Source: a virus. Taken from it: a stretch of DNA of 29,320 nucleotides. How positions within the stretch are numbered: position 1 is the first letter of the stretch; each line of letters begins with the position of its first letter. Where the stretch lies: IMG/VR virus record IMGVR_UViG_3300042288_001613, positions 1 to 29,320 of that record. The stretch is one strand, 5' to 3'. Positions 2,348 through 28,689 of this stretch are shown here, one piece after another. Made by a program: the position numbers and the translations under genes. Below the pieces are notes generated by a model. That model made no database searches and was not told the origin of the DNA. It was given only the letters and a program-made list of their open reading frames with translations.

Positions 2348-3235
2348 TTAAATATCCACGTAGTCCGAGCTGAACACCCCATTAAAATGCGCGTAGCGAT
2401 CCATTGTGAAGCTGGGCCGAGCGTGTCCTAATTGCTGTGCAATGCTCCACCAGTCGGATCCATGGGCGGCTGCGGTGACAGCATGGGCATGGCGCAGCCA
2501 GTGGGGGCTAGCCTGGGGCTTGCCGATCCTGGCCATGGCGACTTTCACCCACTGCCACGCGATAGGGTAGGGTACCGGGAATATTTCGTCCTGGTCCAGC
2601 GCATCCTCTGGCCGGGCCTGGATCAACGCGTCGTAGACCGCCTTGGAGCAACCGATCTCGCGGGCCTTGTCGCCCTTGCCGTGGTGGATAGCCAGGAACA
2701 CCCGCTGGCCGCGTAGGTGCAAGTCACACCACCGCACCGCTAGCGCCTCGCTGGCCCGAACGCCAGTAGCAAATAGGAAGCGCAGGAATAGCTGGGCCTC
2801 CAGGCTAGGTTCCTTGGCAATGGCCCGACGCATCTCGCCTTCGGTTAGGATCCGCTCTGCCATGACTGGCCGGGGCTTGCCTAGCCGGTAGACAGCGTGA
2901 GGCACATTAAAGTGTAGGTAACGAATGGAGCTGCCGAACTTCCACAGCGACTTGATAGCCGCCTTGTGCAGGTTGCAGGTAGCATCGCTCCAGCGCTTCG
3001 GGAACGTGGCCTCGTAGTCGATCAGCATGGCCGCTGTGACCATGGCTAGCTGGTGGCAGTCGTGGTAGTCGAGCCAGGCCCGTAGCCGGGTGATCGCTCG
3101 ACGGTAGGCTTTCTGAGTGCCAGCACTTCGGGAACGACTGATCCACATCTCGATCAGGTGGTCGTCGCTACTGGCCTGCTGCAGGGCAAGGCTAGCAGTC
3201 TGGGAGGGCTGGGAAGTGACGGTAATAGTATCCAT
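2348..3235 (-). CDS. tyrosine recombinase (phage integrase)
   Basis: Full-length site-specific recombinase, about 295 residues. An N-terminal SAM-like core-binding domain (about 25-115) precedes the catalytic domain with Arg160 in ATGVRASE, Lys187 in HHGKGDK, His245-x-x-Arg248 in HWLRHA, His271 in LGHA and the nucleophile Tyr281 in DRYAHF, so all catalytic residues are present. The start ATG at 3235 is 4 nt after the stop of the upstream nuclease-like gene; upstream in-frame starts would overlap that gene, and the Shine-Dalgarno is weak for all. Likely integrates or resolves the element. A second, shorter recombinase lies at 19844. Confidence 0.85.
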   Translation of the reverse strand: MDTITVTSQPSQTASLALQQASSDDHLIEMWISRSRSAGTQKAYRRAITRLRAWLDYHDCHQLAMVTAAMLIDYEATFPKRWSDATCNLHKAAIKSLWKFGSSIRYLHFNVPHAVYRLGKPRPVMAERILTEGEMRRAIAKEPSLEAQLFLRFLFATGVRASEALAVRWCDLHLRGQRVFLAIHHGKGDKAREIGCSKAVYDALIQARPEDALDQDEIFPVPYPIAWQWVKVAMARIGKPQASPHWLRHAHAVTAAAHGSDWWSIAQQLGHARPSFTMDRYAHFNGVFSSDYVDI

Positions 3236-3239
3236 GGCT

Positions 3240-3971
3240 TCAGGGTGCCCAGTACCCTTGTTCCCCATGTTCGAAGCGGGCGCTTCTGGCGGCGGTGAAG
3301 GCTTCAATTAAAGGATCGGCAAATGGATTTACGCCGTCTAAAATTTCTATGTCTGAGCCAATAGAGTTCTCCATGTCATACGCTGACGGCCAATCGCTAT
3401 GGCATAGATAAATACGTTCATCATCAGTTATCCTCCCAAATATCCATCCGTTTAAGCTGTAACTCGGGTATTTCTCCTCCATTTCGTGATCAAACCATGG
3501 AGGGGTATGCAAAAATGCACTTATGCTGTACTTTGCGTTGGAAAATTGTTCCGCAAATGAGAATTTAACCAAGTCAAACTCTGGCTTGTTTAGGTCTCCG
3601 CCTGCTTTCTGTAAACTCACCCAGTGATCCTGCCTTTCCCACGGGCACTCAAGATCAGTTGAATCTATCCAAGGCTGTCCTTGAATTAATAAAACTCGCT
3701 TGCCGGAAGAATCTGCCAGCTTATTGCAGAGAATCCATGAAGGATCTCCAGAATGGCGCATTGTGGCCGCTTTTACATTTTCGGGCTTTATTTCTACCCA
3801 TGCCTGCCAATCGTCAATCCAAAAGTCTGGAAGATACCAGTCCCCATCAAGGTTGAACCCTTCGGGCTCATAGGTCCAGTCCAGCCCCAGAGTATCAAAA
3901 AACACAGCCCACCGAGCCTCTAGCCTGGAGCGGAACCGGTAGCCACGGAACTCGGTTGTTATTGCTTGCAT
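3240..3971 (-). CDS. PD-(D/E)XK-like nuclease-fold protein
   Basis: 243 residues. The N terminus has YRFRSRLEARWAVFFDTLG, then YEPEGF, YLPDFW and WVEIKP. Glu18, Asp49 and Glu60-x-Lys62 match the spacing of a PD-(D/E)XK nuclease site as found in Vsr-like and phage endonuclease families; the C-terminal 150 residues are unrecognised. Base composition is visibly more AT-rich than its neighbours, which suggests recent acquisition. It is co-directional with, and 4 nt from, the integrase gene. Enzyme activity is inferred from motifs only. Confidence 0.6.
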   Translation of the reverse strand: MQAITTEFRGYRFRSRLEARWAVFFDTLGLDWTYEPEGFNLDGDWYLPDFWIDDWQAWVEIKPENVKAATMRHSGDPSWILCNKLADSSGKRVLLIQGQPWIDSTDLECPWERQDHWVSLQKAGGDLNKPEFDLVKFSFAEQFSNAKYSISAFLHTPPWFDHEMEEKYPSYSLNGWIFGRITDDERIYLCHSDWPSAYDMENSIGSDIEILDGVNPFADPLIEAFTAARSARFEHGEQGYWAP

Positions 3972-4086: not shown

Positions 4087-4677
4087 ATGAGCCGGGAAAT
4101 ACGGATCCAAACACAGGAGTTATTTGCGCGGCTTAGAACCCAACTAAAAGCCGCCGACTATAGGCGTACCCGCGACACCCTGATCCTGATCAACCTGGGG
4201 CTGGTGGAAAAGATAGCTGGCCGCTATGCCCAGGACGGCGTAGAGGCCTTTGATGACCTGGTGCAGGTGGGAGTGATCGGCCTGATCAAGGCAGTGGACC
4301 GCTACAACCCAGCTAAGGGCACCGCCTTCAGTAGCTACGCCGTCCCCTATATCCGGGGTGAGATATTGCACCATCGCCGGGACCGGGCGGTGACGCTGAA
4401 AATACCGCGTAGCTGGTCGGACCGGTTCACCCTGCTACGCCAGCTCTATGACGAGCGGGCCAGCCATGCCGCCATGGCCAGCGCTACCCGGATCCCGATA
4501 GACCAGATCCCGCAGGCGCTCAATGCGCTGCTACGGCCAGACTGCCTCAGCCTGGATGCACCGCTAGCGGCTGGCTTAACCGACTGCTGGGAGCTACCCG
4601 ATAGCAGGCCACCGCCAGAGCCAGACTGGGAGCCAGAGCCAGTCTACGAGGTGAGCTGCTGGGGGCTGGCACAATGA
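4087..4677 (+). CDS. phage sigma-70-family factor lacking region 4
   Basis: 196 residues. Region 2 is clear (about 26-100: LVEKIAGRYA, DDLVQVGVIGLIKAVDRYNP, FSSYAVPYIRGEI), and region 3 follows (LKIPRSW ... SLDAPL). Typical group 3 sigma factors (SigF/SigB, about 250 residues) then have region 4, which reads the -35 box; here the protein ends in an acidic, Pro-rich tail of about 30 residues with no helix-turn-helix. It should recruit RNA polymerase to -10-type elements but would need help for -35 contact, like T4 gp55. The RBS is GGGGGTGG before ATG 4087. The stop overlaps the next gene as ATGA, so the two are translationally coupled. Confidence 0.8.
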   Translation: MSREIRIQTQELFARLRTQLKAADYRRTRDTLILINLGLVEKIAGRYAQDGVEAFDDLVQVGVIGLIKAVDRYNPAKGTAFSSYAVPYIRGEILHHRRDRAVTLKIPRSWSDRFTLLRQLYDERASHAAMASATRIPIDQIPQALNALLRPDCLSLDAPLAAGLTDCWELPDSRPPPEPDWEPEPVYEVSCWGLAQ

Positions 4678-5172: not shown

Positions 5173-5265
5173 TCAGCGCTGACCGATGTAGATCTCGTTA
5201 CTGCGTATCTCCCCCCGCCGGAAGCTTTGACTAGGGGGTAGCATCCCCTCGGCCCTTTCGGCCAT
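5173..5265 (-). CDS. possible 30-codon ORF behind promoter B
   Basis: The interval 5031-5371 has no larger gene. The only candidate is a 30-residue ORF starting at 5265, 6 nt after the -10 of promoter B, so its message would be leaderless. The peptide is short and unrecognised. Alternatively promoter B makes a small RNA across 5031-5265, antisense to no known gene. Weakly supported. Confidence 0.2.
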   Translation of the reverse strand: MAERAEGMLPPSQSFRRGEIRSNEIYIGQR

Positions 5266-5271
5266 GTCCTT

Positions 5272-5301
5272 AATATACCCCCACCATATTGGGGTTGTCA
5301 A
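5272..5301 (-). promoter_or_regulatory. promoter/operator B
   Basis: On the minus strand, TTGACA (5296-5301) and TATATT (5272-5277), spacer 18, with GGGGTATA at both the -35 and the -10. It matches promoters C and D almost base for base, including the AATTAGTGGCACA block next to it (about 5314-5326). It points to lower coordinates. Confidence 0.65.
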
Positions 5302-5342
5302 TATACCCCGGGCTAATTAGTGGCACAATGACTGTCACAATA

Positions 5343-5593: not shown

Positions 5594-5684
5594 AGTGGTC
5601 TCCTTTTGTGTATTCTCCCTCCCCTACCTGGGCTAGCGTTTCTGGTGTTCCAGCCATCCGGGGTGGGTTGCTTTGTATGTTCTC

Positions 5685-5714
5685 AATATACAGGGGGTAT
5701 ATAGGGCTTGTCAA
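5685..5714 (-). promoter_or_regulatory. promoter/operator C
   Basis: Minus strand TTGACA (5709-5714), 18-nt spacer, TATATT (5685-5690); flanked by CTGGGGTATA and the AATTAGTGGCACA-like block, as in B and D. It drives the 73-residue gene at 5593. Confidence 0.7.
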
Positions 5715-5753
5715 TATACCCCAGGTAAATTAGTGGCACAACCACTGTCACAA

Positions 5754-5984: not shown

Positions 5985-6090
5985 TGGCTTGCCCTCGGTG
6001 TAAGTGGTGGGTGGGAGGAGGTTGGCTTGTCCTGGCGCTCATCACACTGTCGGTTTCCCGACTCGGCTGTTATCCGCCTCCCATGTCCCT

Positions 6091-6120
6091 AATATACCCC
6101 CACTATATCGGGCTTGTCAA
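6091..6120 (-). promoter_or_regulatory. promoter/operator D
   Basis: Minus strand TTGACA (6115-6120), 18-nt spacer, TATATT (6091-6096), with GGGGTATA boxes over both elements and AATTAGTGGCACA near 6134-6146. It drives the 60-residue gene at 5984. The remainder of 5985-6289 holds only this promoter, the following terminator and a solitary hairpin repeat. Confidence 0.7.
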
Positions 6121-6205
6121 TATACCCCAGGTAAATTAGTGGCACAGTAGCTGGCACAGGCCAAGAATTGATCGGAATGATCAATAACTCAGTCAATAAC
6201 TGGCA

Positions 6206-6258: not shown

Positions 6259-6277
6259 ACTCCCACGGTGGTGGGAT
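6259..6277 (-). repeat. solitary CRISPR-like hairpin repeat
   Basis: One unit with arms TCCCAC (6261-6266) and GTGGGA (6271-6276), loop 4 nt, and GTGCC tail on the minus strand, the same form as units in the arrays. It lies in the 3' untranslated region of the operon ending at 6290, before the terminator. Confidence 0.5.
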
Positions 6278-6289
6278 CTGTCGTCTCAT

Positions 6290-6484
6290 CTAGAACGGCG
6301 TGCCAAGGCAGTCCAAGTCGGCTGGGTCGTCCAGGTTCAGGCTGATGAGCCCGTCAATATCGGCATTTAGCCGGATCCAGACTGTACTGCCTACCACGGA
6401 TTGTACGGTAGCCGCCATCCATGGCTTATCTTTGGTGACGCGGAACGATACGGAGTAGCCGGGGCGTAAAGATAGTCTGCTCAT
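6290..6484 (-). CDS. hypothetical protein of the replication operon
   Basis: 64 residues, unrecognised, with alternating beta-type pattern (SVSFRVTKDKPW, ATVQSVVGSTVWIRL) that suggests a small beta-barrel. Its start codon overlaps the SSB stop (TAATG), so it is translationally coupled to ssb. A role in DNA metabolism is guessed from context. Confidence 0.65.
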   Translation of the reverse strand: MSRLSLRPGYSVSFRVTKDKPWMAATVQSVVGSTVWIRLNADIDGLISLNLDDPADLDCLGTPF

Positions 6485-6909
6485 TAGAAGGGGATGTCCT
6501 CGTAGGTGGGCTGGCTGGGCTGGGCTGGCTGGTCCTGGGGGCGTTCGGTCGATACTGCTGCAACTGGCGAGCTTCTGACGACTTTGGCCATCTTCCAGGC
6601 CTTGACGATCAGCTTGGAGCGACGCTTGCTGGTCTCCCGGTCTTGCCAGCTTTCTTCGTCGATCTGGCCTTCGGTAATGGCTACCCGGTCACCCTTGAGT
6701 AGGTTGTCGCCAGCCCATTCAGCGGCGCGGCCAAAGCACTTGACGGTGATCCAGGCGGAGCGGGCCTCGCCGGACTGGTCCTTGCCAGCATAGACAGCGA
6801 TCCGCATTTCGCAGATCTTGCCGCCGGTGGTGGTGAACCGTAGTTCGGGGTCGGCCCCAAGGTTGCCGACACATTGGACTGAATTATAGGCGTAGGGTTC
6901 TGCAGGCAT
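6484..6909 (-). CDS. ssb: single-stranded DNA-binding protein
   Basis: 141 residues. An OB-fold SSB domain occupies about 5-112 (SVQCVGNLGADPELRFT, ITVKCFGRAAEWA, LLKGDRVAITEGQIDEESW), followed by a Pro/Gln-rich linker and the acidic tip YEDIPF that recruits partner enzymes. Binds ssDNA during phage replication. The leader CACACTTACAGAGGAGAC carries the common translation-start motif. Cotranscribed with the sliding clamp gene upstream. Confidence 0.93.
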   Translation of the reverse strand: MPAEPYAYNSVQCVGNLGADPELRFTTTGGKICEMRIAVYAGKDQSGEARSAWITVKCFGRAAEWAGDNLLKGDRVAITEGQIDEESWQDRETSKRRSKLIVKAWKMAKVVRSSPVAAVSTERPQDQPAQPSQPTYEDIPF

Positions 6910-6937: not shown

Positions 6938-8074
6938 CTATGCTGGTTCCCTGATCTGTATTGGCATCACCAAGTACACCTGGCTGCTGCCGGGGGCGGT
7001 GATCGTGGCTGGGCTGGTCGGGGTGTTGGTGTGCAGGATCACCTGCTCGCTGCCGAAGGCCTTGAGGCCATCCAGCAGGTAGTCGCCGTTAAAGGCCATG
7101 GGATTCTTAGCTTTGCCCAGCACGTCCTCACCCTGGCCTTCGCTGGCCTCACAGTCAACCAGCTCCCGCCCGCTAGAGCCTTGTACGTCAGCTTCTAGCA
7201 CTAGCTGTCCCTGGTCATTCCACTGGTGCCTGATGATGCCTTGCTTTTGGCTAGCCACCACCATGATCCGGCTCAGGGCATCGATCCAGGCTTGCCGGTT
7301 GATCAGCGTCTCCACCGCAAAGGCAGTGGGGATCAGTCGGCGATACTCTGGATACTGGCCCTCCAGCAGCCGGGTAGTGAATACCAGATCGCCCAGGTCA
7401 AAGGTGGCGATGGTGTTGTCCAGCGTTACCGTCACCATCCCCTCAGCCTTGCCCAGGTGCCCACTCAGGGCCTTCAGGCCTTTGCTAGGCAGTGTGACAG
7501 GGGTAAATGCTTCAAGGGCCTCCTGGGCCACCGGGAACACGCTGAGGCGATGGCCATCGGTGGAAGCAACTTCCAGGCCATCGGCAACGGGTTGCAGGTG
7601 AACGCCGCAGAGGATCTGCTTGCTCTCGTCATCGCTGACGATGGCTAAGGTGGCTTCCAATGCCTGGGCCAAGGTGCTAGCCTCCAGGGTTAGCTGCTGC
7701 CCCTCTGCCCGCTCGATTAGTGGGTACTCCTCCCCGGGCTGGCCGGATAGGCTGTAGCTGCATCCAGGTGCAGCAATGATGATAGCCTGGCTGGTTTCTG
7801 GATCCCAGTTAAGCGCTAGGTTCCCCTCCATGCGCCCCACCATATCGGTGAGTAGCTTGGCCGGTAGCAAGACTTCGCCTTCTACGGCAATGCTGGCGCT
7901 GGCCTTGGCGGTGATGGTCACCGCTCCCAAGTCAGAGCCTGTCACCGCCAGGGTGTTGTCTTCAGCCTTGAGTAGCAGGTTTGTCAGTACAGGGTTGCTA
8001 GGCCTGCTGGGCACCGCCCGGTTGGGCAGGGCCAGGACGGTGGCTAGGTCTTTGGCATCAATCGTTAGTTCCAT
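6938..8074 (-). CDS. dnaN: DNA polymerase III beta sliding clamp homologue
   Basis: About 378 residues, full length for bacterial DnaN. The N terminus MELTIDAKDLATVLALPNRAV, the VTGSDLGAVTITA strand, LLPAKLLTDMVG, the second-domain ICGVHLQPV...STDGHRLS and the C-terminal VYLVMPIQIRE are typical. The ring protein would tether polymerases and QL(S/D)LF-bearing proteins to DNA. The ATG at 8074 is preceded by GGAG and lies 17 nt inside the end of the methyltransferase gene. A phage-borne DnaN is uncommon and fits either phage replication or clamp-dependent transcription with the QLSLF protein at 4674. Confidence 0.93.
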   Translation of the reverse strand: MELTIDAKDLATVLALPNRAVPSRPSNPVLTNLLLKAEDNTLAVTGSDLGAVTITAKASASIAVEGEVLLPAKLLTDMVGRMEGNLALNWDPETSQAIIIAAPGCSYSLSGQPGEEYPLIERAEGQQLTLEASTLAQALEATLAIVSDDESKQILCGVHLQPVADGLEVASTDGHRLSVFPVAQEALEAFTPVTLPSKGLKALSGHLGKAEGMVTVTLDNTIATFDLGDLVFTTRLLEGQYPEYRRLIPTAFAVETLINRQAWIDALSRIMVVASQKQGIIRHQWNDQGQLVLEADVQGSSGRELVDCEASEGQGEDVLGKAKNPMAFNGDYLLDGLKAFGSEQVILHTNTPTSPATITAPGSSQVYLVMPIQIREPA

Positions 8075-8657
8075 GGTTTCTCCAGTTAGTACAAAATTCA
8101 AGCTCAGTCCCTTGGCTATTGCCGAAGCGGTGCCAGATAAACCATGCGGTTGTCACCGAGTCGGTGCCGCCAGTGTCCGCCCGGAATTGTGGCCGGGGGT
8201 TGAACACGATCAGCTTTGCCGGTGGGTGCTCCGCTAGCCAGCTAGCCCGGTTGGCGCAGGGCTCCAGGTAGCTGAGCCGCAAGAGCATGGCCATGCCCAC
8301 CCGGCAGTTGCCGAAGGCCAGCGGCAGGATGGCTGGGGCCTGGTTGTAGGGTGGGTTCGTGATCACCCAGTCGTAGCGGGCAGAGCGAGCCCAGGCGCCA
8401 GGATCGGTAGCGTCCATGGTGAAGCTGGTGGCACCGATGGCGGTTGCTGGCTTGGTCTTGGCCGGATCAATGTCGGCGGTATCCACCAGGCGGAACAAGC
8501 CAGATTCTTTCAGCACATCGCTGATCGCACCCTCGCCATTGCAGGGCTCCAGCACGGTGGCCTGGTTGCGCCAGGGGACAAAGCGATGGCTATCCAGCAA
8601 GGCCCAGGTGAGCAGGCCGGGGGTGGGATAGAAGTCGAGGGGTTGTCTGGCCAGCAT
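8058..8657 (-). CDS. SAM-dependent methyltransferase, probably DNA N6-adenine
   Basis: 199 residues. DFYPTP (about 8-13), SAM-binding motif I VLEPCNGEGA (35-44), an acidic residue at TADIDP and the catalytic NPPY (101-104) give the layout of N6-adenine methyltransferases. The closest resemblance is to phage and plasmid orphan enzymes, as no restriction gene is adjacent. It is the first gene of the operon with the clamp and SSB, so methylation of newly made phage DNA is plausible. Target sequence unknown. Confidence 0.75.
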   Translation of the reverse strand: MLARQPLDFYPTPGLLTWALLDSHRFVPWRNQATVLEPCNGEGAISDVLKESGLFRLVDTADIDPAKTKPATAIGATSFTMDATDPGAWARSARYDWVITNPPYNQAPAILPLAFGNCRVGMAMLLRLSYLEPCANRASWLAEHPPAKLIVFNPRPQFRADTGGTDSVTTAWFIWHRFGNSQGTELEFCTNWRNHGTND

Positions 8658-11254: not shown

Positions 11255-11461
11255 ATGGCGACTTATGTTTTTAAATGGCAGAAAGCTTACGCAAGCGGGG
11301 TGATGGAGGGCAGTTCGACTGTCCAGATCGCTAGCGGAGATATTCGCATGGCTACTTCTGCCGCTCAGCTGCAAATAGCCCAGATCCACGCCCTATCGCC
11401 TAACCAAGTCGAGATCCGCGACATCCAGCGGATTCAGTTTAACACCCTGGGGGGAGACTAA
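11255..11461 (+). CDS. hypothetical small protein
   Basis: 68 residues, unrecognised. ATG 11255 follows GAGG (11242-11245) at the end of the preceding gene. Two beta-like halves (TYVFKWQKAY, STVQIASG) then a helix and IRDIQRIQF. Confidence 0.6.
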   Translation: MATYVFKWQKAYASGVMEGSSTVQIASGDIRMATSAAQLQIAQIHALSPNQVEIRDIQRIQFNTLGGD

Positions 11462-11502
11462 CCAGGCCACTTACAGAGGACCACAGACTATGAACACCAT
11501 CC

Positions 11503-11619
11503 ATGCCCGCCAGCCAAGGCGTGGCCAGCCCAGTTGATGCAGCACTGTTTTTTGTTACGGGCGCTACGGTGATCGCCATTGCCGCAGCGGAAAACCGGGA
11601 TAAGAAGCGCAAAAAGTAA
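11503..11619 (+). CDS. 38-residue membrane miniprotein
   Basis: One transmembrane helix (AALFFVTGATVIAIAAA) followed by a strongly basic tail (NRDKKRKK), so the C terminus should face the cytoplasm. An upstream ATG at 11490 with the shared start motif CACTTACAGAGGA encodes a 15-residue overlapping peptide that stops inside this gene, which may couple translation. Holin-like or membrane-targeted toxin roles are possible; nothing specific is recognised. Confidence 0.45.
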   Translation: MPASQGVASPVDAALFFVTGATVIAIAAAENRDKKRKK

Positions 11620-11700: not shown

Positions 11701-12561
11701 ATGCTAACCACGCGACGACTATCAAGCGAAGTCCTCGAAGTCCGGATGCGCTATACCGGGGAGGAAACCTATCACTTTTTGTTAGCTTCAGACATCCACC
11801 TCGATAACCCAAAATGTGATCGCAAGCTATTTTTTAGTCACCTGGAAAAGATGAAGGCTCTCAACGGCAGGGCCTTATTTTTTGGCGATGTGCTGTGCTT
11901 GATGCAGGGCAAGCGCGACAGGCGCGGCAGCAAGGCCAGCATTCGCCCCGAGCACCAGGGCGCCAACTACTTTGACTTGGTATTCAAAGAGTCCGCCGAT
12001 ATTCTGGCACCCTACGGCCAGGAGATCCTGATGATGGGCAACGGCAACCATGAGACAGCCATCATCAACCACCAGGAGATAGACCCACTGGCTAATGTGG
12101 TACAGCAGCTGCGGGACCGCCATGGGGCCATCACCGAGCACATGGGCTATCAGGGCTGGATCCGTTTTGTGTTCTACAAGGAACGTGGCCAGGGCGTCGA
12201 GGCTGTTCGGCGGTGCAACTTGTTCTTCCACCATGGGGCCTGGGGCGGTATCGTCACCAAGGGCACCATGGGCGGCGGTCGCTATGCCAGCATCGCGCCG
12301 GACGCTGATGTGATCGTCAATGGCCACAACCATGAGCGGAGCATTATTTCTCACCCCTGCTACCGGCTGATCGAAACCGGCAAGGTGCGGGTAACTCCCC
12401 GATACCATGTTCAATGCGGCACCTACAAGGAGGAGTTTCAGGGCGGCAATGGCTGGGCGGTGGAGCGGATCGTCATGCCAAAGTCATTAGGCGGCGTCTG
12501 GCTGAGGCTGACTCCCACTAAGTCCGCTGGCGTTGTGGTTTCACTGGAGCCGGCTAGCTGA
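11701..12561 (+). CDS. calcineurin-like metallophosphoesterase
   Basis: 286 residues. The two-metal site is complete: Asp31-x-His33 (SDIHLDN), Gly62-Asp63, GNGNHE (113-118), HHG (177-179) and GHNH (208-211). Such phage enzymes hydrolyse phosphodiesters of nucleotides or nucleic acids; the substrate cannot be told. A Met at 16 is an alternative start. It stands alone between the early-operon terminator and the array 2 leader. Confidence 0.88.
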   Translation: MLTTRRLSSEVLEVRMRYTGEETYHFLLASDIHLDNPKCDRKLFFSHLEKMKALNGRALFFGDVLCLMQGKRDRRGSKASIRPEHQGANYFDLVFKESADILAPYGQEILMMGNGNHETAIINHQEIDPLANVVQQLRDRHGAITEHMGYQGWIRFVFYKERGQGVEAVRRCNLFFHHGAWGGIVTKGTMGGGRYASIAPDADVIVNGHNHERSIISHPCYRLIETGKVRVTPRYHVQCGTYKEEFQGGNGWAVERIVMPKSLGGVWLRLTPTKSAGVVVSLEPAS

Positions 12562-12573
12562 ATCCGGTTAATG

Positions 12574-12619
12574 TGCTATACTGGGACTAGGACCTTGACA
12601 ATTTGTGGTAACAGTGGAT
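12574..12619 (+). promoter_or_regulatory. leader and extended -10 promoter of array 2
   Basis: TGCTATACT (12574-12582) and then CCTTGACAATTTGTGGTAAC before the first repeat, nearly identical to the leaders of arrays 1 and 3. The -10 starts 13 nt after the phosphoesterase stop. There is no matching -35 upstream. Confidence 0.6.
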
Positions 12620-12965
12620 CCCACTTCGGTGGGGGTTTATCCCACTCAGCCGGTAGCCACTCGCGGCCAGCGCCAAAGCCTACCCCACTCCAGTGGGGGT
12701 TTATCTGGTTTATCTGGGAGTGATTCCGAAGACTGGTAACGATCTGGATGGCCCCACGCTGGTGGGGGTGTGTCGATGACAATACCTAGCCCCATTTTGG
12801 TGGGGGTGGATCCAAACTATAGTTGCATGTTTCCCCACAGTGGTGGGGATGTTTCAGAGTTCTCTCCCTCGCCCCATACTGGTGGGGGTGCTTCTTGACT
12901 CTGGCGAGTCCCCACGCTGGTGGGGGTGCTTCTAAACTTTGGTTTAGCACCACTCTGGTGGGGGT
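12620..12965 (+). CRISPR. CRISPR-like hairpin-repeat array 2
   Basis: Eight hairpins with stems starting at about 12620, 12684, 12753, 12791, 12834, 12873, 12911 and 12949 (steps 64, 69, 38, 43, 39, 38, 38). The first is CCCACTTCGGTGGGGGT. Long units come first and short units last, as in arrays 1 and 3. Tails read GTTTATC in the first two and GTGGATCC, GTGCTTC or ATGTTTC later. The last copy is followed by TTTTTCTTTT and may itself end transcription. Confidence 0.62.
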
Positions 12966-13030
12966 TTTTCTTTTGACACCCAACTATAAGCCAGTCGTGT
13001 TAAATTAGGCTTTGTAGATGCACCACACCA

Positions 13031-13053
13031 CCCCGGCCAGCCCGGGGTTTTTT
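13031..13053 (+). terminator. terminator after array 2
   Basis: CCCCGG and CCGGGG arms around CCAGC-type loop sequence, followed by six T. Together with the leader at 12574 it would bound an RNA of about 460 nt. Confidence 0.75.
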
Positions 13054-13075
13054 GTTGCCTGGGCATTCTGGATCC

Positions 13076-13699
13076 ATGGCAACCAAGAAACCTACACCAA
13101 AGCTACGATCCAAACGTGCGCCCAAGCCAGCCCCTGGTGCTAGGCGAGGCAACCGGCAGGTGGTGAAGACCTCCGGCCAGCCTGCTACGCCAGCCTGCAA
13201 GGAACGGGCATTCGAGCTGTACTGCGACCTAGGGCCCCAATGGGCTGAAATATCCAGGCGACTGAAGGCAGAAGGCTTTGACCGCTGTGGCAATACCACG
13301 ATCAGCGGCTGGGCCAAGGCAGGCGACTGGCACGCCAGGAAGCTGGCTTTGTCGGAGTCACCAGGCGAGGCGGCAAAGGTGCCCCACAAGGCCAAGACAG
13401 CACCACCCCCACCGCCAGCGACAGACCTGGGCAGCTACCGCACCAAGAAAACCAACCTGGAGCATGTGCGCACAGCCATTGAGCAGGTGGTGCAGTCTAT
13501 CTGTGACGCACGGGCCACCAGCGACCTGCGGGCCATTGGTAGCCTAGCGACGGCGTTGGTAAAGCTGATTGAACTTGAGGGGAAATTAAGCCCGGCCACG
13601 GCATCAGAGCTGGCGGCCAGGGCAGTAGATCTGGGCCTGGATCCAGAGCAATTTATGGCCGCATTGGCGGAGCAATGGCGGATCGCCAAGGCTGGCTAG
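13076..13699 (+). CDS. probable terminase small subunit
   Basis: 207 residues. A basic, disordered N terminus (about 1-40) precedes a helix-turn-helix around WAEISRRLKAEGFDR ... TTISGWAKAGDW, the usual DNA-recognition part of TerS, then a Pro-rich linker and a C-terminal helical region. It would recognise the packaging site and recruit the large terminase at 22343, from which it is separated by 8.6 kb, which is unusual. GGATCC precedes the ATG with only a weak RBS. It is flanked by two arrays transcribed towards it. Confidence 0.6.
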   Translation: MATKKPTPKLRSKRAPKPAPGARRGNRQVVKTSGQPATPACKERAFELYCDLGPQWAEISRRLKAEGFDRCGNTTISGWAKAGDWHARKLALSESPGEAAKVPHKAKTAPPPPPATDLGSYRTKKTNLEHVRTAIEQVVQSICDARATSDLRAIGSLATALVKLIELEGKLSPATASELAARAVDLGLDPEQFMAALAEQWRIAKAG

Positions 13700-13701
13700 A
13701 A

Positions 13702-14420
13702 CCCCCACCGTGGTGGGGATAGCCTAGCAAGTGAACAACGCCCACAGGGGTGGGGATGGTTTGACGAGGGAGAGACGCCCACGGGGGTGGGATGCGATGC
13801 AGTTCTAAGAAATACTCCCACGGTCGTGGGGCTGGCTGCTTAGGTTAGAAAGACTCCCACGGGAGTGGGGTGTGCTTTGAGGCCTCAGTCAGAGCGATCA
13901 ACCCCCACCGGAGTGGGGAGGTGTTTGCGAGATACCCTAGCACTCTGCAATGTCATACCCTATTTTGAGAAACCCCCACCGCAGTGGGGAGGTGTTTGCG
14001 AGGTTAGGTTGCCGTAGGTAACGGGCCAGGTCCGCAAGCGAGAAACCCCCACCGGAGTGGGGAGGTGTTTGCGAGGAGACCCCGGTTAAGCGTACCGGTA
14101 GATACCCCATACCGTTTAGATAAACCCCCACCGAAGTGGAGAGGCGTTTGCAAGAGCCAGCCCGGCCAAGGGTGTAAGCCATAGTAGAGAGATAAACTCC
14201 CACCGAAGTGGGGTGTGCTTGCGAGATCAGTTGCGGCGGTGGCAAACTGAGCGAAAGAGAAACCCCCACCGAAGTGGGGAGGTGGTTGCGAGGTACCTGG
14301 TCACCAGCCTGGCTCCGTTGGCGGTGGTGGTGCGAGAAACCCCCACCGGAGTGGGCTGTGTTCCGCAGCGGTGGCGGGGCTCAGTTTGTTTTCCAACGAC
14401 TCACCCCCACCGAAGTGGGA
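13702..14420 (-). CRISPR. CRISPR-like hairpin-repeat array 3 (13 units)
   Basis: Read from the leader at 14.47 kb, hairpins lie near 14404, 14340, 14263, 14197, 14125, 14046, 13973, 13902, 13854, 13815, 13777, 13740 and 13702. The first eight steps are 48-79 nt, the last four 37-39. Long units share a 36-nt repeat: left flank CTCGCAAACACCT, stem CCCCAC, 4-nt loop, GTGGGG, then GTTTCTC. Spacers between long units are unique but 28-43 nt, too variable for standard type I-E acquisition. The first repeat core matches arrays 1 and 2. Confidence 0.65.
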
Positions 14421-14468
14421 TCCACCACTGTCACCACAAGTTGTCAATGTGCTACCCCGAGTATAGCA
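14421..14468 (-). promoter_or_regulatory. leader and extended -10 promoter of array 3
   Basis: Minus strand TGCTATACT (14460-14468), then TTGACA at 14442-14447, CTTGTGGTGAC and GTGGATCC up to the first repeat. Same order and spacing as the other two leaders. It is divergent from the gene at 14519. Confidence 0.6.
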
Positions 14469-14483
14469 CACAACCACCAACCT

Positions 14484-19843: not shown

Positions 19844-20386
19844 ATGGCAGGACAAGCCAAAGTATTAACCCAAGACGAGATAGACGCACTCCTATACCAT
19901 TGCTCTAGTCCTCGGGACCGGGCGCTGATCGGGTGCATGTTATTTTGTGGCCTGCGAGTAGCCGAAGCGGTGGCCCTCAGTCCGAGTGATATAAAAGGAG
20001 GGATGCTTGTACTACCCAAGGCAAAGACCAAGGGCAAGCTAGCCAGCCGGTCTATCCCGGTGCATCCTAGCCTAATGCTGTTGCTGCAGCAGTACGGCCC
20101 ACCCCAGGGCGAGTACCTATTCCCTGGCCGCCATGGCCGGGGTCACCTGCACCCTGCTAGCGCCAGTCAGGTAATCCAAGATTGCCTTACCCTAGCAGGC
20201 CTCTCCGGGCTGGGCATCACCACCCACAGCTTTAGGCGCACTGCCTTGACGAAGCTGAGCAATGCTGGCGTTCCCTTGCGCGTGATCCAACAGATCAGCG
20301 GCCATAAGAGCCTGGCTAGCCTGCAGTTGTACCTGCAAGTCACACCAGACCAGGTGGAGTCGGCGGTGCTGGCAGCATTTGGGTAA
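19844..20386 (+). CDS. short tyrosine recombinase (catalytic domain only)
   Basis: 180 residues: only the C-terminal catalytic domain, with Arg38 in CGLRVAEA, Lys in KTKGK (61-65), His128-x-x-Arg131 in HSFRRTA, His154 in GHKS and Tyr163 in LQLYLQ. The N-terminal core-binding domain of normal integrases is missing, yet the frame and RBS (ACTTACAGAGGATGATC) are intact, so it is a natural short form and not a fragment. It lies downstream of the iterons and inverted repeats. Confidence 0.85.
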   Translation: MAGQAKVLTQDEIDALLYHCSSPRDRALIGCMLFCGLRVAEAVALSPSDIKGGMLVLPKAKTKGKLASRSIPVHPSLMLLLQQYGPPQGEYLFPGRHGRGHLHPASASQVIQDCLTLAGLSGLGITTHSFRRTALTKLSNAGVPLRVIQQISGHKSLASLQLYLQVTPDQVESAVLAAFG

Positions 20387-20480
20387 CTCCCACTATTGTG
20401 GAGCCTACACCATCTGGCCGAAGCACTCCCACCATTGTGGGACATGCACCCTCTGGCCGAGCCACCCCCACCGCAGTGGG
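20387..20480 (-). CRISPR. CRISPR-like triple hairpin repeat
   Basis: Three units 39 nt apart (cores near 20388, 20427, 20467). The two intervening sequences are nearly alike (CGGCCAGAnGGTG on the minus strand), so they arose by tandem duplication and not by independent acquisition. The block follows the recombinase stop directly. Confidence 0.5.
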
Positions 20481-20985: not shown

Positions 20986-21044
20986 AGAGGTTCTCCAATT
21001 TACCCCCAGTGTACAGCATGGCCAGCGGAAAGGCTAGGGGTATA

Positions 21045-21073
21045 TTGACAAGCCGATATAGGAGGGGTATAGT
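21045..21073 (+). promoter_or_regulatory. promoter/operator E
   Basis: TTGACA (21045-21050), 17-nt spacer, TATAGT (21068-21073) with GGGGTATA over both boxes, as in A-D. It drives the two AT-rich genes from 21109. Confidence 0.7.
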
Positions 21074-27747: not shown

Positions 27748-28689
27748 ATGGCATTAACATTAATCGAAGCAAGCAAGCTGACCCAAGACCCGGTTACCCG
27801 GGCCGTCATCAATGAATTTTCTGCAGGCGAGATCCTTGGATCCATTCCTTTTGAAAATGAGGAAGGTTCTGGGGTTCACTACAACCGGGTGGATCAACTA
27901 CCTGGCGTCGGCTTTCGTGCCCTGAACGAAGCCTTCGACGAGTCCACCGGCGTCATCAACCCGCAGTCTGAAGCATTCCGGTTCTACGGCGGTGACATGG
28001 ACGTTGACCGCGCCCTGGTCAACCTGAAAGGTCAGCAGGCCCGGGTTGCCCATGAGCAACTGAAGATCGAAGCGCTGCGCCTTGGCTGGGAGTACCAGTT
28101 CATCAAGGGTGACTCTGCCGCCGATCCCCGTGGCTTTGATGGGCTGCAAAAGCGGATCACTGGCAGTCAGTTGATCAGCAATGCGGATGGCGGTGCAGCA
28201 CTCAAGCTGACCAAGCTGGATGAACTGCTGAGCCAGGTTAAGTTCACTGGCGGCACCCCGTACCTGATGATGTCTCGCAAGATGAAGGATCTGCTAACCG
28301 CAGCCTCTCGCGATACCACCAAGAGCGGGTTCATCCAGTACGAACAGGATACTTTTGGCCGCAAGCTACCCCAGTATGGCGGTGTGCCTATCCTGACCGA
28401 TGACATCAGCTCCCCCATCCTGCCCTTTACTGAGGCCAGCCCTGATGGCGCTGTATCGACCTGCACCAGCGTCTACTGTGTGGTCTTTGGCCCGCAGATG
28501 ACGACTGGCATCCAGGGGCGCAATGATACGGCTAGCGGGTTCGGCATCAGCGCTCGGGATCTGGGCGAAGTCCAGGACAAGCCAGTATTCCGTACCCGGG
28601 TTGACTGGAACTGCAGCTTTGCCATCTACAACGGCTACAGCGTAGCCCGGCTGTATGGCATCACCAATGCTGCTGTAGTGGCCTCCTAG
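27748..28689 (+). CDS. major capsid protein (HK97-fold type)
   Basis: 313 residues. N-arm IEASKLTQDPVTRAVINEF, then a typical P-domain/A-domain layout (ALRLGWEYQFIKGD, GGTPYLMMSRKMKDLL, GGVPILTDD) and C-terminal FRTRVDWNCSFAIYNGYSVARLYG. Location after the scaffold and length fit the HK97-like capsid protein. Confidence 0.82.
   Translation: MALTLIEASKLTQDPVTRAVINEFSAGEILGSIPFENEEGSGVHYNRVDQLPGVGFRALNEAFDESTGVINPQSEAFRFYGGDMDVDRALVNLKGQQARVAHEQLKIEALRLGWEYQFIKGDSAADPRGFDGLQKRITGSQLISNADGGAALKLTKLDELLSQVKFTGGTPYLMMSRKMKDLLTAASRDTTKSGFIQYEQDTFGRKLPQYGGVPILTDDISSPILPFTEASPDGAVSTCTSVYCVVFGPQMTTGIQGRNDTASGFGISARDLGEVQDKPVFRTRVDWNCSFAIYNGYSVARLYGITNAAVVAS

Follow-up and report, generated by a model that had tools for sequence, protein, structure and literature searches.

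CRISPR arrays carried by phages have been described before. Those of ICP1, of huge phages and of SPV1/2 hold spacers against related viruses and usually lack adaptation genes (PMC11656645, PMC7162821, PMC6858448), and the array of cyanophage CL131 combines 36-nt repeats with spacers of 26-45 nt (PMC6293099). Adaptation-less phage CRISPR, mini-arrays directed at related viruses and arrays of 36-nt repeats with variable spacers are already known. The locus described here was found in a window of 29,320 bases, the whole of the stretch analysed from an IMG/VR virus record (position 1 is its first letter). It differs from ICP1, the huge phages and SPV1/2 in that it has its own Cas6e, Cas7e and Cas5e, its arrays reach 15 units and these units are divided into long and short. 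The 36-nt repeats and variable spacers are shared with the CL131 array; however, the repeats of that array are near-identical, its neighbour is TnpB/V-U-like, and it has neither Cascade genes nor a short phase.

Type I-E systems (E. coli/Thermus/Chloroflexota) resemble the phage locus in their Cas6e, Cas7e and Cas5e families, in the hairpin with an 8-nt tag and in the leader at one end of the array. Unlike these systems, the phage set has no detected Cas1, Cas2, Cas3 HD domain or Cas11, its Cas8e-like protein is only about 270 aa long and its Cas5e is shortened; its units come in two lengths, with diverse repeats, and are spread over several arrays, some of them leaderless. The four missing components and the unit length therefore make it a variant of type I-E and not a plain member. 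The I-E derivatives I-E2, I-E3 and I-E5 likewise have altered nuclease parts, with a PD-(D/E)xK nuclease fused to Cas11 in I-E3 and an HNH nuclease fused to Cas5 in I-E2 (PMC12669027), whereas the phages have a separate nuclease-like gene before cas6e, and Cas11 and the Cas3 HD domain went undetected.

Two groups of CRISPR-derived RNAs are also relevant. CreTA/CreA and crRNA-like regulatory RNAs (PMC9458426, PMC10989794) resemble the phage units in their degenerate repeats and shortened guide, and they have a cleavage-free function, which would also apply here; CreTA/CreA, however, consists of one or two repeats by a toxin gene, whereas the phages have dozens of units and no toxin was seen. 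Racr RNAs are, like the phage units, repeat-like hairpins in intergenic regions of phages, but they are solitary, whereas the hairpins described here form arrays with a conserved Cas5-side tag, often conserved spacers, and Cas genes (PMC10651486). No literature report was found of an I-E-derived set with two ordered unit lengths in a 73-78 kb phage, and no such set was found in named phages, the unannotated MT835722 being left aside.

Arrays and leaders in the window

Hairpins of the form CCCAC-N4-GTGGG occur 26 times in the window, against 0.08 expected. Judged from sequence, the rows that they form are CRISPR arrays of a phage-borne system derived from type I-E. Array A0 (1028-1280, + strand) comprises seven short units of 36-42 nt directly 3' of cas5e, and array D (20389-20480, - strand) comprises three; both consist of short units exclusively and have no leader. 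Array A1 (2114-2304, +) has steps of 64 and 70 nt (long) and 43 nt (short), then its last hairpin. The long units of array B (12620-12752, +) have steps of 64 and 69 nt and are followed by short units (12753-12962, +) with steps of 38, 43, 39, 38 and 38 nt and a last hairpin. Array C runs on the - strand, with long units at the leader side (13918-14419; steps 64, 77, 66, 72, 79, 73 and 71 nt), most of which have the 36-nt repeat CTCGCAAACACCTCCCCACTYCGGTGGGGGTTTCTC, and distal short units (13704-13917; steps 48, 39, 39, 37 and 37 nt, and a last hairpin). Hairpin spacing thus declines in all three leader arrays of the window (A1, B and C), from 64-79 nt by the leader to 37-48 nt at the distal end. 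The earlier note had put the distal spacing at 37-43 nt, which holds for most units, the exception being the 48-nt intermediate in C; its 36-nt repeat likewise fits most long units, although both long units of array B are without most of the CGCAAACACCT flank.

The leader of A1 (2060-2113, +) contains the extended -10-like box TGTGCTATAGT and was delimited by an alignment of 16 leaders. That of B (12572-12619, +) has an inverted copy at 14425-14470 (85%), and the leader of C (14420-14470, -) was recognised by this inverted match and by the leader alignment. The consensus of the 16 aligned leaders, from six phages, is TGTGCTATA(G/C)T..ACCTTGACAAyTTGG..GGTGGA, and the extended -10-like box is present in the aligned leaders (n=16). 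Arrays B and C have separate leaders and converge across the gene at 13076-13699. Lone hairpins of the array type were also seen outside the arrays, at 6262, 8719 and 8788 of the window, and a similar pair lies at 11441-11505 in the related phage G001.

Related phages

Three related phages (G001-G003) carry Cas7e proteins that are 84-96% identical. All three genomes (73-78 kb) are complete or almost complete, as judged from terminal direct repeats of 127 nt in G003 and from the circularly permuted order of both G001 and G003 relative to G002. No DNA match was found to named phages or plasmids. Comparison of Cas7e with named phages gave three matches below 30% identity: a bacterial contig, a fragment of 1.5 kb, and MT835722, an unannotated fecal 'Bacteriophage sp.' of 20.7 kb (29% identity, E 8e-34). 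In the scanned bacterial genomes the nearest Cas7e proteins belong to systems of Planctomycetes and Chloroflexi and are 30-32% identical.

The cas genes

The left window edge cuts cas7e, leaving its 3' part (12-581, +; PF09344, E 9.6e-32; PADLOC Cas7e). It is followed by cas5e (553-1020, +; PF09704, E 1.1e-28; PADLOC), the product of which is C-terminally short, at about 150 aa compared with about 240 in the alignment with bacterial I-E proteins. The G001 Cas6e, Cas7e and Cas5e proteins exceed the NCBIfam cut-offs of TIGR01907, TIGR01869 and TIGR01868, and Cas6e retains the LHR histidine and the glycine-rich end. In the relatives the operon reads nuclease-like gene, cas6e, short array Y, cas7e, cas5e, short array A0 and a divergent gene.

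The 272-aa protein of the divergent gene is Cas8e-like and is missing the C-terminal half. Compared profile against profile with a purpose-built Cas8e model, it took ranks 1 and 2 of 116 phage proteins (E 1.5e-4 to 2e-4; about 197 collinear columns at the N terminus), and it came fourth, non-significantly, in an hmmsearch with that same model; plain HMM (Pfam) searches, with controls positive, and PDB sequence searches found nothing for Cas8e (Cse1). The nuclease-like gene is separate, encodes 214 aa and overlaps the start of cas6e (L006 7919-8560; L007 4182-4820); its product has a D..EVK motif and a weak match to the SfsA RE domain (E 0.0038). Structure models of the Cas8e-like and nuclease-like proteins had pLDDT values of 33 and 35.

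HMM searches with positive controls found no Cas1 (PF01867), Cas2 (PF09707) or Cas3 HD domain (PF18019), and Cas11/Cse2 (PF09485) was absent from G000-G003 and present in the control G006. Lacking both a Cas3 HD domain and Cas11, the phage proteins are unlikely to destroy a target by themselves, barring an involvement of the nuclease-like protein or of host proteins. The phage system would work like a reduced I-E system, and so small an effector set (Cas6e, Cas7e, a short Cas5e and a short Cas8e-like protein) offers a probe of which Cascade parts are indispensable.

Anatomy of the long and short units

A census of four phages yielded 114 distinct units, in arrays of 3-15 units in the window and relatives. 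The units fall into a long class of 62-87 nt (n=50) and a short class of 31-53 nt (n=64). Common to both are the hairpin and, at the position of the 8-nt I-E crRNA handle, a tag of equal length, xGTxxxTC. The tag is present in nearly all long units; among the short units, 62-63 of 64 retain positions 2, 3, 7 and 8, and positions 1, 4, 5 and 6 vary. In long units the hairpin is preceded by the flank CTCGCAAACACCT. The bacterial I-E control arrays (L024, L026 and L028) have units of 61 +/- 1 nt, a CCCCAC-N4-GTGGGG hairpin and the handle GTGAACCG or ATGAACCG where the phage tag lies, and the phage units fail the I-E norm of a 28-29-nt repeat and a unit of about 61 nt.

Where the flank is complete, the spacers of long units range from 27 to 43 nt (n=35, mean 34.5, sd 3.8), which bears out the earlier range of 28-43 nt. 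These lengths had been thought too variable for Cas1-Cas2. They rule out the canonical I-E integrase, but not a host Cas1-Cas2 of another type (cf. PMC6293099).

Short-unit spacers cluster at 14-17, 21-22 and 26-27 nt, with just one below 14 nt. Within the 18-22 range, 11 of 13 units sit at 21-22, leaving a valley at 18-20 (p about 0.0013); the 6-nt length steps depend on about 16 units outside the main peak. In Cascade, each Cas7 accounts for about 6 nt of guide. Two units with a partial flank lie between the classes: one of 48 nt, ending in AAAGCACAC, in array C of the window and of G001, and one of 40 nt in L041, ending in AAAACACCTC.

Order of the units and turnover between phages

The order of long before short units recurs in the relatives. 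Across 15 leader arrays of four phages there are 9 inversions of a possible 202, all confined to array Z of two relatives, and none of 20,000 permutations reached so few. The two-phase design that had been reported for three arrays of the window is therefore confirmed, and it sets these arrays apart from ordinary type I-E arrays such as the controls with their uniform units.

The two classes also differ in how often they are shared. In shared leader arrays, a counterpart in another phage was found for 8 of 53 long units and for 43 of 63 short units (Fisher p 7.5e-9, which overstates the significance because counterparts were counted in each phage). Long units are seldom shared and short units mostly are, which implies that the leader end turns over and that the distal end is old. 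The A1 arrays of L039 and L041 consist mainly of long units and have their own spacers by the leader. The comparison across related phages that the earlier note had proposed thus fits growth at the leader together with shortening.

The reading that we prefer, at a probability of roughly 0.6, is of a phage-borne, I-E-derived CRISPR system in which guides at the leader are full-length, older guides are shortened and retained, and the short guides bind without destroying their targets. Transcription of the arrays would begin in the leader, phage Cas6e would cut the transcripts at each hairpin to give RNAs with an 8-nt 5' tag, and Cas5e would load on the tag. Comparison of the arrays shows that full-length units are gained or swapped often at the leader end and that some hold spacers against related phages; with no Cas1-Cas2 of the phage's own, new long units may come from a host integrase or from recombination between phages. 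Ageing units would shed the CGCAAACACCT flank of 13 nt along with some of the spacer, and the short units keep, under selection, the hairpin, the tag and about 14-16 nt of spacer (less often 21-22 or 26-27 nt). The retention is seen in the comparison between phages; the shortening is deduced from the long-to-short gradient and the intermediates.

A short RNA would most likely assemble with Cas5e, Cas6e and only a small number of Cas7e subunits, and would bind a target without destroying it. Shortened I-B guides are known to give repression without cleavage or priming (PMC10989794). If the short guides of the phage do bind without destruction, the long guides would serve competition between phages and the short ones repression. 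A bolder form of this proposal, which we hold only tentatively, makes guide length a switch: long guides would attack relatives, and guides shortened with age, in one-Cas7 steps of about 6 nt, would form mini-Cascades that regulate phage or host genes, all without Cas1, Cas2, Cas3 or Cas11 of the phage's own. Hand-shortened guides switch type I systems from destruction to repression, and ordered two-length arrays would be a natural case. Such arrays would also form a datable series from new guide to fixed guide, and their arrangement may keep the attack on rivals apart from a second use of CRISPR guides.

It is also possible, though in our judgement doubtful, that the classes have separate origins, the long units forming an array supplied through recombination or by a host integrase, and the short ones being a distinct duplicating hairpin element that was never longer and lies downstream by chance. 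Leaderless arrays of short units exclusively are found at four to five other loci, so short units may multiply by a route of their own, and no clear case was found among the compared phages of a long unit in one that is a shortened unit at the same place in another. One short unit is moreover found at different loci in G001 (28550-28640) and G003 (62536), with a near-identical spacer (CTGCTGAAGCGCTTTAATTGC / CTGCTGAAGGGCGTTAACTGC), from which it follows that units are able to move or be copied. However, separate origins would leave the identical hairpin and tag of the two classes, the 48-nt and 40-nt intermediates with their partial flanks, and the strict long-then-short order behind the leader to be accounted for. 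In L039, two units of one array (at 652 and 989) have a nearly identical 33-nt spacer, pointing to repeated capture or to duplication within the array.

Spacer targets and conservation of the short units

Seven of 65 long spacers reached 30 bits against genes of the phages themselves, compared with 0-1 in shuffled sets. Four match genes of related phages at the DNA or protein level, and most spacers are without a match. Two long spacers in array B of G002 encode RSIVSHPCYRL and HPCYRMIET of a metallophosphatase-like protein. A spacer in array C of the window (LENKLSPAT, 26/30 nt) and a long spacer in A1 of L039 (TIYAWAKAGDW) match the 207-aa protein encoded at 13076-13699. The four spacers are all sense-oriented, and they match the two genes flanking array B or homologues of these genes: the metallophosphatase-like (SbcD-type exonuclease) gene (11701-12561, +; PHROG 7339, E 3.8e-16) and the gene of the 207-aa protein (13076-13699, +), which lies between B and C and is positioned like a small terminase. 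The latter protein has no Pfam, PHROG or NCBIfam match, and the homologues of its gene were those in the three relatives only. Mismatches at synonymous positions suggest that the targets are in diverged relatives. Exact protospacers were sought in viral contigs for two spacers, and none was found bar the array itself. Matches of spacers to mobile elements had been expected to speak against an unusual mechanism, and they were found in part, in these four long spacers.

No targets of short spacers above chance were found in the phage's own genome. Self-matches anchored at the 5' end of short spacers were not enriched, and those below 10 nt are indistinguishable from chance. With no target found for the short spacers, a decoy role and separate origins keep some probability; the short guides probably either bind without destroying their targets or act as decoys.

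Between phages, the differences per site in orthologous short units are 0.02-0.03 in the stem and 0.01-0.02 at the fixed tag positions, compared with 0.12-0.24 at four-fold degenerate sites; loops differ at 0.35-0.39 and the free tag positions at 0.31 per site. The stem and the fixed tag positions of the short units are thus maintained, and the short units are retained guide-like elements rather than debris. Compensatory changes in the stem were too rare to be informative, as the stem scarcely varies. The spacers of orthologous short units are letter-identical in 25 of 65 pairs. An apparent constraint on short spacers (0.068 per site) came from a set picked for similarity; a looser rule gave about 0.18, near the four-fold sites, and so does not prove a constraint. 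Repeats diverge faster than spacers, which is the opposite of an ordinary array and could be useful for finding the indispensable parts of a repeat. In CreTA, degenerate repeats shield units from recombination (PMC9458426).

We regard it as unlikely that the short units are RNA decoys, which would mimic host I-E repeats, soak up the host's Cas6e, Cas7e and Cas5e and thereby serve as RNA anti-CRISPRs, the spacer sequence being irrelevant; the phage Cas proteins would then act jointly with these RNAs as dominant-negative partners. The conserved hairpin and tag next to seemingly targetless spacers, and the many copies scattered between genes, would suit such a role, and the truncated Cas8e and missing Cas3 and Cas11 would leave complexes inert. 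RNA anti-CRISPRs of like logic are known; however, RacrIF1 acts through a subcomplex that lacks Cas5 (PMC10651486), whereas in the phages the tag that would contact Cas5 is one of the most strongly conserved elements. Decoys would also not call for letter-identical spacers in orthologous units, and long units targeting related phages would be superfluous. Nor was a host I-E system with a phage-like repeat (CTCGCAAACACCTCCCCAC..GTGGGGGTTTCTC) seen in a genome scan that reached distant I-E systems only.

Decay of repeats at the distal end is common in CRISPR arrays, and the distal part might accordingly be a decaying array in which mutation and deletion erode useless old units. The far-end repeats are more diverse and deletions shorten units, as decay would predict, but the low divergence of stem and fixed tag relative to four-fold sites, the tight spacer length with its single case below 14 nt, and the fact that the distal units are those shared between phages all run against it. 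This conservation pattern largely refutes decay, which we consider very improbable. As to the earlier suggestion of a growth or decay mechanism, the comparison fits growth at the leader with shortening; plain distal decay is insufficient, as the hairpin and 8-nt tag are nearly perfect in short units and therefore maintained. Least credible of all are non-CRISPR DNA or mRNA elements (terminators, iterons, packaging or mRNA-stability elements), for although the stems are stable (fold z-scores -2.8 and -4.3) and some lie 3' of genes, the hairpins adjoin a Cas6e-Cas7e-Cas5e operon, have an I-E-like hairpin and tag position, and show common leaders, spacer turnover and spacers matching genes of other phages. 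Terminator, iteron and Rfam identities were dismissed, and there was no Rfam match.

Host and neighbouring genes

Homologues of the terminase and the clamp hint at a cyanobacterial host. The sliding-clamp-like gene (6938-8101), which has clamp homologues in other phages, lies near genes for a sigma-70 region 2 protein (Pfam; 4087-4677) and an SSB-like protein (6484-6909). A full tyrosine recombinase (Pfam) is encoded at 2348-3307 (-), and a shorter recombinase-like gene (19844-20386, +) adjoins the short array D. A promoter-like intergenic element (TTGTCAATATACCCC and its neighbours) is present in both orientations, in copies that are 73-86% alike, at 1281-1347, 5262-5339, 5675-5752, 6081-6158 and 21037-21067 of the window. 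In G001-G003 the palindromes ACGCGT, CACGTG and GCGCGC are almost missing and GCTAGC, TGGCCA, GGATCC, TGATCA and CCATGG are 3-5x over-represented, a bias that is possibly a restriction or host signature.
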